NCBI GenBank assembly: GCA_015491865.1
Contig: WFVD01000005.1
Coordinates: 1 to 34,297, forward strand
DNA from: Gammaproteobacteria bacterium
GTDB taxonomy: Bacteria > Pseudomonadota > Gammaproteobacteria > SZUA-140
Direction of reading: 5' to 3'
Length of the DNA: 34,297 nt
Within the stretch, counting starts at the first letter, position 1. Each line of letters starts with the position of its first letter. This document shows positions 24,838 to 31,182 of the stretch, piece by piece. The notes beneath the pieces were generated by a model. That model was not told where the DNA came from and did no database searches. It worked only from the letters and a program-made list of their open reading frames with translations. Position numbers and translations under genes: made by a program.

Positions 24838-26268
24838 ATGACTCCCGCGGGTCGCCAACTCAGCCTGACTGAGCAAATTAAGCAACATACGCTTTCGCCT
24901 GACAGAACGGCCCAGCTGCTGGGCGATCTGGTGCATATTCGTGAGCTGGTGACAGAGTGTCTCGAATCACCATCCGACTGTAAAGAGGCGCTGATCTGCC
25001 AGAAAATCAGGGAGATCACTCTGCCGCTCTGTGATCTGTCACTTGCGCGGGTGGTGGGTCTATTAAACGACAGCGGGCAATGTGCGGGCGATCAGGGTGG
25101 TGGACATTCAAATCGGCGGTTGAAGGCTTATGCGGAGGTGGTGGATGATGTGATCTGCTACATCGAAAGTATTCGCGACGGCTACCAGAGTGATGATGGT
25201 TTTCTGGAAAATATTGAAGAGAAAATGAGTGCCGCTGGGGTTTCATCTGCCTGCCATATCACAACATGTTCTGGTAATTGTCCATCCGGTGTGATGACGG
25301 AGTTTCTGGAGAGTGTCTCGCTCTCGTTGCAGGAGATTCGCTTACTGCTGGCGCAGTGGAAAAAAACGCCAGACCGCAAGTTTCTGGCGACTGAACTCCT
25401 GCGGCAGTTGCATGCGCTCAAGGGGGGGGTGCTCGTTTATGGGGTATCGGGGCTGGTTGAAAGCATTCAATCTCTTGAGTCGTGTGTGGCTGCCTTTTTA
25501 AAAGGGGAGCTAAAGGCGTGTGAGCGGATGTTTGAACTGCTTGGTCGCTATGTCAGCCGTATGGTTACGGTGGCTGGCTTGCTGGGCAAGGAGCTACTGG
25601 TCAATTCACGGGTCTTATCTGCGGTGAATGTAGCGCCAGCCATGCCTTCGCCCAGGGAACCGCTGCCGCACCTAAGCAAGGGCTGGCAGAAAAGGGGGGT
25701 AAATACGCTGCCGGGTTCAGGCCAGCCAGTTTCACAGAAACTGCCTCGCTTACGTTTCCTGGTAGAGCGCGCCAGCATAATGTTGGGTAAACCGGTGCGT
25801 CTGGTAGTGTCGGGTGAGGAGGTGGTGATCCCTTTAGCGGTGATGGAAAAGCTGATCGCTCCGCTGGAGCTGTTAATCTGGAATGCGATTGATCATGGCA
25901 TTGAGTCGCCTGCCGTGCGGGCTGCAGCCGGTAAGCCTGGGGAGGGTGTGATTACGCTTTCATTCACCCCTGATCCGGTGGGCTCAGCCGTTACTGTTAC
26001 GGTGAGCGATGATGGTGCCGGGATCGATGAAGAGGCGGTCCGCCAGAAGGCGACCGAGGGGGGGTACGGCACGTCGAGTGAGTCGGTTGAGGAGATGATC
26101 TTCTACCCGGGGTTAAGCACTGCTGCTGCAGTTTCACCGGTATCGGGTCGAGGCATGGGGCTGGATGTGGTAAAGACGGAGGTTTTCCGTCTCGGCGGCT
26201 CTGTTCAGGTGCAGAGTGCGCGAGGGGAGGGGAGTAGTTTTACGCTGATCGTTCCCCTGAGCCCTTGA
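24838..26268 (+). CDS. Stand-alone CheA/ChpA-like histidine kinase
   Basis: A 476-residue cytoplasmic protein with the core of a chemotaxis-type kinase. Residues 1-140 are helical without a known motif. An HPt domain follows, with phosphoacceptor His192 in LHALKGG. A long linker leads to a HATPase domain with N-box LIWNAIDHGIE (Asn349), G1 DDGAGID (391-397) and G2 GRGMGLDVVK (437-446). The sequence ends just after this ATPase: the CheW-like P5 domain and any receiver are missing, and no cheY, cheW or receptor gene is adjacent. The HATPase most resembles ChpA/PilL kinases of type IV pili. The start is ATG 24838 because the frame is closed by TGA at 24811. A run of eight G lies at 25422-25429, next to the phosphoacceptor codon. 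Confidence 0.85.
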   Translation: MTPAGRQLSLTEQIKQHTLSPDRTAQLLGDLVHIRELVTECLESPSDCKEALICQKIREITLPLCDLSLARVVGLLNDSGQCAGDQGGGHSNRRLKAYAEVVDDVICYIESIRDGYQSDDGFLENIEEKMSAAGVSSACHITTCSGNCPSGVMTEFLESVSLSLQEIRLLLAQWKKTPDRKFLATELLRQLHALKGGVLVYGVSGLVESIQSLESCVAAFLKGELKACERMFELLGRYVSRMVTVAGLLGKELLVNSRVLSAVNVAPAMPSPREPLPHLSKGWQKRGVNTLPGSGQPVSQKLPRLRFLVERASIMLGKPVRLVVSGEEVVIPLAVMEKLIAPLELLIWNAIDHGIESPAVRAAAGKPGEGVITLSFTPDPVGSAVTVTVSDDGAGIDEEAVRQKATEGGYGTSSESVEEMIFYPGLSTAAAVSPVSGRGMGLDVVKTEVFRLGGSVQVQSARGEGSSFTLIVPLSP

Positions 26269-27920: not shown

Positions 27921-29349
27921 TTAGCTTGCTTTGTCGATCGCTTTTTTATTATTGGGCACTGCACCTGCGGTTGTCATGTCGACATCCTCCAGGATAGCGT
28001 CGATGTCGCTGCCATTAACATCAGCGGGGGTGGCTGTTACCGCTCTGGGTGTATCGCTATCGATAGTTGCTGCGAGTAGTGCATCAATATCATCGACGTC
28101 TGTTTTAGCTGTTTCTCTTTCAGGCGTGAGTGGTGACTCATCAGTCTGATCTGTTGCTGTTGCGGCTAACAGCGCATCAATATCATCTGCATCGATCTCC
28201 TCTGTTGATTCCGGTTTTATATCATCGCCGGCAGTGGCCGCCAGTAAGTCGTCGATCTCATCAGGGTTAAAAGCCTCTTCAATGTTTGATGAGCCTGTTT
28301 CCCTGGCAGAGGTCACCTCACCATCTGCACTGCTTGCTGCCAGCAGTGCATCAATATCATCGTCTGCCAGCGTTGCCGCTTTCTCTGTCGTTTCGGTCAC
28401 TGGCGGTGTAACTTGCGGAGCTGAAGCGCTATCGAGACCGAGGTCAATACCGAACTCTGTTTCATTTTCGTTGCTATCGGGTGGGTTGTCGCTTGTCTTA
28501 TTTGTGTCGCTTATCTCCCCGATATCATCGATACTCAGGAACGGGTTTTTCTCTTCTTCGTCCTCAGGTTCGATTGTGTGAGTCGCTTCTTTATCTGCTT
28601 CTTCAACTGGGGGTTCGCTAGCTATGTCGGTAGTGCTCTCCTGTTCTGCCGTTGCCTCTTTACTGGATGGTTGGGCGTCACCATTATCGGTAGTATCTCC
28701 CGTGGGGCTTTCAGGTGACGGCTCAGGCATCTCATCTTTCTGAGCAGATAATTTCTGTTGCTGCGCGATTTTTTCTTCCGCAGCGTCACGCCCGCCACTA
28801 AAAGCTGAGATAAACTCTGCGACAGTCTCTCGCATCTCCTTCTTCGCAGCGGCTAGCTCTTTCTCAAGATGTGCATTGATTTGAAGTGAGGTAGAGAGCT
28901 CATTCTGGAGGCGATTGTTTTCATCTTTTAGTTCGGTGAGTTCTTTACTGTCGTTGCTGTTAGTCACCGTCGTATTTTCAACTCTGGTGGCACCAGCTCT
29001 GGAGTAGGCGTCAATGAGCGCCGTGATTCTATGATCAAGGTTCACTAATGCCGCGCTATCTCGACTGGCGTAGATCTCCATCATTGTCATATAGAACTCA
29101 ATCTCTCTGTTTTGGAGCTCTTTTGCTGCGGTGGCGAGTGCTTCGCCTTCAAGATGATGGCTCTCTTTGAGTTTTACTGAGAGTCGATTCAGGTGCTCTT
29201 CTTTACTGTCTTGCAGCTTCTTTGTGAGCTGTGCCAACGCTTTTCTGTCGTTACGCTGCTGGCGTAATTTTAGAAAGATAAGTGCACCGCTTAACACGAG
29301 TAGAAATAAAACGATTTCAGCAAGAATCAGCGATAGTGATGCGTAAAGA

Positions 29350-29357
<8 letters not shown>
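27921..29357 (-). CDS. Membrane-anchored coiled-coil protein with five FliM-like EIDALL repeats
   Basis: Not a recognised family. The 478-residue protein has an N-terminal membrane helix (about residues 7-29), then a basic stretch and a largely helical, coiled-coil-like region (about 30-195, including ELTELKDENNRLQNEL). A very acidic, disordered tail follows. In the tail the motif DIDALLAA or a close variant recurs five times, with its first Ile at residues 335, 368, 393, 424 and 452, spaced 25-33 residues apart; the last copy is DIDAILED. This motif resembles the EIDALL peptide at the N-terminus of FliM and FliN. The tail is probably cytoplasmic if the membrane helix is N-out. The gene overlaps the upstream vWA gene by 8 nt and is surely co-expressed with it. 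Confidence 0.85.

Positions 29358-31182
<1,825 letters not shown>

Follow-up and report, generated by a model that had tools for sequence, protein, structure and literature searches.

A membrane-anchored array of FliM-like peptides and its VWA partner as a possible regulator of flagellar motility in Gammaproteobacteria

The usual view of the flagellar motor is that phosphorylated CheY (CheY-P) is captured there by single FliM peptides. According to the literature, FliM offers CheY-P its EIDALL helix as a binding site, the N-terminal ends of FliM (and FliN/Y) concentrate CheY-P before middle-domain binding, and the dissociation constant cited for the FliM N-terminal peptide is weak, at 27 uM (PMC9126983); the helix sits on the alpha4-beta5-alpha5 face of CheY (PMC11528121). 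A review of FlhG in monotrichous bacteria has it use the FliM N-terminus as well, without binding FliN (PMC12826062). A further motility protein, MotW (VC2232) of V. cholerae, is described as having a signal peptide, three immunoglobulin (Ig)-like periplasmic domains, a C-proximal transmembrane helix and a short positive tail; its polar location requires HubP, and cells without it tumble less often and swim more slowly, with single flagella normal (PMC8789113). In this paper we describe a gene pair from a marine gammaproteobacterium, found in a 34,297-nt stretch of contig WFVD01000005.1 (the window, to which all coordinates refer), in which a membrane-anchored protein carries five copies of an EIDALL-type peptide and is encoded next to a partner with a VWA domain. 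In our estimate there is an even chance that this array mimics the N-terminal peptides of the C-ring and so catches one of the ligands of the C-ring, CheY-P being the likeliest, thus tuning motor switching.

The motif protein and its array have the following features.

27921..29357, minus strand: motif-protein gene, 478 amino acids, with an N-terminal transmembrane helix, a probably cytoplasmic coiled coil and an acidic disordered tail bearing the five motifs.
29265..29336, minus strand: predicted transmembrane helix, about residues 8-31 from the sequence (the AlphaFold helix spans 2-50).
28731..29255, minus strand: coiled-coil helical region, about residues 35-209, with the conserved stretch EMRETVAEFISAFSGGR (alignment, AlphaFold).
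28527..28547, minus strand: NPFLSID, a short conserved tail element, with NPFL-ID invariant in 9/9 genus sequences.
28341..28358, minus strand: motif 1, DIDALL, residues 334-339.
28242..28259, minus strand: motif 2, EIDDLL, residues 367-372, an extra copy found in 3/9 orthologues.
28167..28184, minus strand: motif 3, DIDALL, residues 392-397.
28074..28091, minus strand: motif 4, DIDALL, residues 423-428.
27990..28007, minus strand: motif 5, DIDAIL inside DIDAILEDVD, residues 451-456.

The likeness to the EIDALL peptide is one of motif only, and the five copies are located in the C-terminal tail and not at the N-terminus, with successive spacings of 33, 25, 31 and 28 residues. The core pattern matches five times in the 268-residue tail; in 100,000 composition-preserving shuffles of this tail the maximum was one match, reached in 193 of them. 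Since the copies differ at synonymous codon positions, the array does not stem from a recent DNA duplication. Of the four occurrences of the exact DIDALL-coding pattern in the organism's 2.54-Mb genome, three are in the motif protein and one is antisense inside a uvrA-like gene. An AlphaFold model (9 input sequences, mean pLDDT 54) predicts the tail past residue 209 to be disordered, and the only helices of at least four residues beyond this point, at 334-341, 365-375, 390-401, 424-431 and 449-457, are the five motifs. Membrane orientation can be judged by the positive-inside rule: the K/R-rich stretch LKLRQQRNDRK follows directly after the transmembrane helix, and the C-terminal part of the protein is therefore probably cytoplasmic.

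The organism's own FliM starts with LLTQDEIDALLHGV (fuller N-terminus MSVNDLLTQDEIDALLHGV), which is of the EIDALL type, and the end of its CheZ (SQDEVDDLLSSLGF; DEVDDLLSSLGF; QDEVDDLLSSLGF) bears a C-terminal DEVDDLL. CheZ peptides bind CheY. The match of the motif core to both of these peptides counts in favour of C-ring peptide mimicry. The own FliN N-terminus, GDDWAAAMNEQ (GDDWAAAMNEQAESEA near the start), is related to the EIDALL peptide yet different. No Pfam or NCBIfam family matches the motif protein above its cut-off, and a search against solved structures gave no direct sequence match up to E 10. We rejected an identity as FliM or FliN, there being no FliMN_C (SPOA) match above cut-off in either collection, and likewise as PspB (11.1 vs 51.7 bits required), as DUF4381 (15 vs 27.2 bits) and as HubP/FimV, for which neither the LysM nor the C-terminal FimV TPR domain was matched.

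Within the genus, we aligned nine full-length sequences, the own protein and eight others, and judged the presence of motifs by eye; the orthologue of one genome (G002; our handles are G for genomes, f for families and L for loci) is divided between contigs, and its tail does not enter the analysis. The relatives that carry names are metagenome bins, for example Chromatiales bacterium HyVt-459 and Chromatiaceae bacterium SZUA-76. The eight orthologues retain three to five motif positions and their linkers drift. Motif 1 is kept in 8/9 sequences, the remaining one reading DNIDATL, and motif 4 in 7/9, being missing in two. Motifs 3 and 5 are kept in 9/9, with DDINAIL or DDIEAIL in two sequences for the former and DDIGAIL in one for the latter, and the AILxDVD of motif 5 is also found in four sister-genus genomes. 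In pairwise comparisons of an equivalent set of nine (own sequence and named loci; 28 motif columns, 149 linker columns), amino acids differ in 101/887 cases (11.4%) in motif columns vs 2864/4732 (60.5%) in linker columns, a contrast that is partly built in because the motif columns were chosen by the motif pattern itself. Where the residue is unchanged, synonymous differences occur at a rate of 0.48 in motifs vs 0.44 in linkers, and this similarity would seem the better argument for conservation of the motif. The NPFLSID element is conserved as strongly as the motifs yet is unlike them, and is a candidate for a second binding element.

A preliminary description of this locus had placed five motifs, 25-33 residues apart, in the acidic tail of a coiled-coil membrane protein, and translation and the shuffles confirm this. 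It had also proposed that the motif is kept as the linkers vary, which the nine-sequence alignment bears out, orthologues having repeated cores and motif residues more conserved than linkers, and that the array is tethered to the membrane, which fits the topology of a cytoplasmic array on a membrane anchor. Its label of a FliM/FliN EIDALL peptide holds for FliM, whose likeness is strengthened by the FliN-type arrays described below and by the way the family tracks flagella, and needs amending for the different FliN N-terminus.

To survey the family more widely, we built a profile on 20 sequences and searched it in 370 genomes of the class that are at least 90% complete; homologues of the motif protein were found in 69 of them. 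Within the order we count a credible homologue in 16/20 genomes and not 18, judging by sequence, as the matches in G011 and G013 cover the transmembrane helix alone and the proteins look unrelated. A plasmid collection held no motif-protein homologue and one distant homologue of the partner. Tails were read in 80 genomes (the 69 and more from the order), 57 of which have a tail of at least 30 residues. These 57 tails contain 45 FliM-like cores, where shuffling leads one to expect 0.53, and 21 FliN-like W-x-x-A-L cores (0.21 expected). Outside the own genus, with partner tails included, the counts are 17 FliM-like cores (0.69 expected) and 25 FliN-like cores (0.33 expected). In a second control, with the own genus included, the reversed FliN-like pattern is found 0 times vs 25 forward. 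Many tails have no strict motif and were scored as misses, and in no genome read were both strict kinds found together.

Four families (f1, f2, f95 and f125) include a genome with at least three cores. The array type can switch between relatives: in f1 it is FliM-like in the own genus and FliN-like in the genome of a sister genus (G010), and f95 has five and six FliN-like copies. A peptide of the FliN N-terminal type (DPWADALAEQ) is repeated up to six times in some homologous tails. The N-termini of FliM and FliN were read for 21 genomes, some of which gave just one of the two; the tail repeat EDPWADALAEQA stands beside an own FliN of EDPWAEAMNEQA in G373 and of EDPWSEAMDEQA in G221. Across 6 genomes of the order the pattern W-[GADEV]-A-A-x-x-E-Q has five matches, two in the G010 tail and three at FliN loci, and its reversed control has none. 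In our reading, the FliM-type and FliN-type peptides can be superimposed, as sequences, as D-[DEP]-[IVW]-x-[AD]-[LA]-[LM]. The family suggests that the conserved, little-discussed N-terminal peptide of FliN may be functionally equivalent to that of FliM. In two genomes (G172 and G234; L195 and L196) FliN itself bears two W-type peptides, for example DEWAAALEEQ and DPWAEALQEQ, so that FliN N-termini can be bivalent.

The partner gene lies upstream of the motif gene.

29350..31182, minus strand: partner gene, 610 amino acids, TTG start, with a signal peptide, a VWA domain, a beta-rich Ig-like region, a transmembrane helix and a short cytoplasmic tail.
30583..31080, minus strand: partner VWA domain, residues 35-200, with a DVSGS metal-site motif (domain match).
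29626..30513, minus strand: partner Ig-like region, residues about 224-519, within the part that matches TIGR03503 (Foldseek, model).
29353..29379, minus strand: partner C-terminus KPWEALAHE; PWE[AS]LAHE in 9/9 genus sequences, PWEALAHE in 8.

The 3' end of the partner gene overlaps the start of the motif gene, and the overlap is identical in 8/8 related named loci. More widely, a VWA partner adjoins the motif-type gene in 66/71 loci, corresponding to 61/66 distinct genomes, five genomes being represented twice; the five partnerless loci include one at a contig start. The cytoplasmic tail of the partner is usually 10-30 residues long. In G144, however, it has 270 residues with four WAEAL repeats and the coiled-coil protein is nearly tailless, and in G266 and G284 the partner tail has one FliM-like core each and the coiled-coil protein is tailless. 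In total, 54 partner tails hold six motifs, against about 0.18 expected. This relocation suggests that the function of the array belongs to the complex, irrespective of the carrying subunit. The PWEALAHE ending of the partner slightly resembles the FliN-type DPWADALAEQ.

Foldseek matches the beta-rich region of the partner to proteins with tandem Ig/FN3 domains, from a low-confidence model (mean pLDDT 54.9). Residues 225-593 match positions 2-370 of the 374 of TIGR03503 with 132.8 bits (E 1.4e-38), below the cut-off of 305.6. The predicted architecture of residues 224-610 fits the description of MotW, with Ig-like periplasmic domains, a C-proximal transmembrane helix and a short positive tail. 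An Aeromonas TIGR03503 protein scores 371 bits, above the cut-off; its gene comes after rnhA and dnaQ, with fadE further on, and has no array-type partner directly after it. VC2231, VC2233 and VC2234 we take to be fadE, dnaQ and rnhA, for which a literature search gave no confirmation. TIGR03503 probably includes MotW, and the effects of MotW loss on tumbling and speed, together with the partner's likeness to TIGR03503, count in favour of a motility regulator. The 4.9-Mb Aeromonas caviae record NZ_AP026896.1, which has rnhA, dnaQ and fadE and is filed as plasmid pKAM479_3, looks chromosomal.

The genome is flagellated: genes for FliM, FliN, FlhF-like and FlhG-like proteins, CheY, CheZ and CheA are clustered on another contig, the FlhF- and FlhG-like genes adjoining the C-ring genes (by eye), and the array gene is located outside this cluster. 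The own CheY is close to CheYs of solved structures, including a sequence set that lists 1F4V. Across the class, with flagella counted by FliMN_C only, this domain is present in 209/370 genomes, and is found in 64/69 genomes with a homologue vs 145/301 without (odds ratio 13.8). Homologues occur in 33 families of the class draw, each of which contains a flagellated genome. G003 and G010 were considered as array-bearers without flagella and rejected: FliM and FliN were not found in them, yet flagellar rod genes are present, so that the absence more likely reflects incomplete genome bins. The suggestion in the preliminary description that the array is non-flagellar is doubtful, in a flagellated genome and a family that co-occurs with flagella, even though the gene lies outside the flagellar cluster. 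Its idea of a multivalent scaffold is otherwise supported in part, the motif positions being kept and each predicted to be a helix in a disordered tail.

The gene pair might encode a two-protein inner-membrane complex, in which the VWA and Ig-like subunit would face the periplasm and the other subunit, a coiled coil anchored in the membrane, would extend into the cytoplasm as a flexible tail of helical FliM-like, elsewhere FliN-like, peptides. With its several sites fixed at the membrane, the array would then capture a soluble reader of C-ring N-termini, most likely CheY-P. Many weak sites on one anchored tail could make a high-capacity, localised holder of CheY-P, and holding it near or away from the motor could tune switching; the VWA and Ig-like subunit may sense the cue for this in the periplasm or the cell wall. 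Repeats outside the C-ring could in this way buffer the signal, compete for it or localise it. We tentatively propose, at somewhat under an even chance, a new class of transmembrane motility regulator, with a periplasmic VWA/Ig sensor and a portable array of C-ring peptides, exchangeable in evolution as to its type and its carrier subunit, that buffers or localises CheY-P (or FlhG) and links the envelope to switching. Such a family could connect the switching signal with the periplasm, and the array would supply a partner and a mechanism for MotW-type regulators. Array-bearing relatives in other bacteria suggest an undescribed device for tuning swimming.

Several observations weigh against the capture of CheY-P by C-ring mimicry. 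The reversed FliM-like pattern is found 13 times (7 in the own genus) vs 48 forward. Only 14/34 of the families read have a strict motif in either tail, which means that not every homologue comes with an array. The co-occurrence with flagella (Fisher p 6e-13) is uncorrected for kinship, and it is shown for the family and not for the motif, because the strict motif is found in 21/64 flagellated vs 1/5 non-flagellated homologue genomes, which is no real association. FliM and FliN were not found in five homologue-bearing genomes (G012, G099, G114, G306 and G325); in G012 rod genes were not found either and there is no motif, and in G306, which is 99% complete, one FliN-like motif is nevertheless present. 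We found no report in the literature of direct CheY binding by the W-type N-terminal peptide of FliN, and MotW is itself a poorly understood regulator.

The main rival to CheY-P as ligand is FlhG (FleN), a MinD-like ATPase that would read the peptides, with the array holding it or handing it on and so linking a site in the membrane or periplasm with C-ring assembly or with the number or position of flagella; we consider this rather unlikely. FlhG is placed first among the rivals because, in the review cited, its contact in monotrichous bacteria is the FliM N-terminus; it does not bind FliN (PMC12826062), and the latter point speaks against it where so many tails are FliN-like. The FlhF- and FlhG-like genes beside the own C-ring genes agree with such a role, as do published descriptions of MotW and FlhG as each HubP-linked, but the reported MotW phenotype concerns tumbling and speed and leaves the single flagella normal (PMC8789113).

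It is also unlikely, in our view, that the motifs bind a partner outside flagella and chemotaxis, such as another receiver domain, and that their likeness to FliM and FliN is a convergence on an acidic amphipathic helix. The own genome has 52 receiver-domain matches, looser acidic motifs (DEDELLAQL, LDLSEL; by eye) are found in tails without a strict motif, and the five homologue-bearing genomes of the class draw in which FliM and FliN were not found would fit such a partner. Yet the FliN-like repeats agree with FliN at about ten positions, which goes beyond a loose helix, the W-[GADEV]-A-A-x-x-E-Q pattern matched only FliN and the G010 tail in the 6 genomes of the order, and the presence of the family tracks flagella. 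A neutral low-complexity repeat kept by slippage, with no binding function, could account for an acidic, disordered tail of variable copy number, but we strongly disfavour it as very improbable: the copies differ at synonymous sites and lie 25-33 residues apart instead of head to tail, motif columns are conserved where linkers are not, and the array changes type and subunit between lineages.

Two genes from the array gene, at 24838-26268 on the plus strand, there is a histidine kinase resembling CheA, in which an Hpt (153-241) and a HATPase (342-475) domain were found but no CheW-type domain.

Among the open-licence papers listed in our searches, we found no description of arrays of FliM- or FliN-type peptides outside the C-ring. 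With the FliM N-terminal peptide the motif shares the core D-[DE]-I-D-A-L-L, and for both a short helix is predicted within disordered sequence, but the motif protein has three to five repeats on one membrane-anchored tail and no FliM domain was found in it. The FliN peptide D-x-WAxA[LM]xEQ recurs in the repeats of homologous tails of other lineages; it is not in the window protein, which also lacks a FliMN_C match. The CheZ end DEVDDLLSSLGF resembles the motif core, but is a single C-terminal copy on a soluble phosphatase. HubP/FimV is likewise a membrane protein whose cytoplasmic part is large and acidic and, in some cases, contains repeats (PMC12918733), and differs in the LysM and FimV TPR domains that the window protein does not match. 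MotW and TIGR03503 share with the partner a signal peptide, Ig-like periplasmic domains, a single C-proximal transmembrane helix and a short positively charged cytosolic tail, and the partner in the window differs from them in its extra N-terminal VWA domain, its score below the cut-off and its pairing with an array protein.
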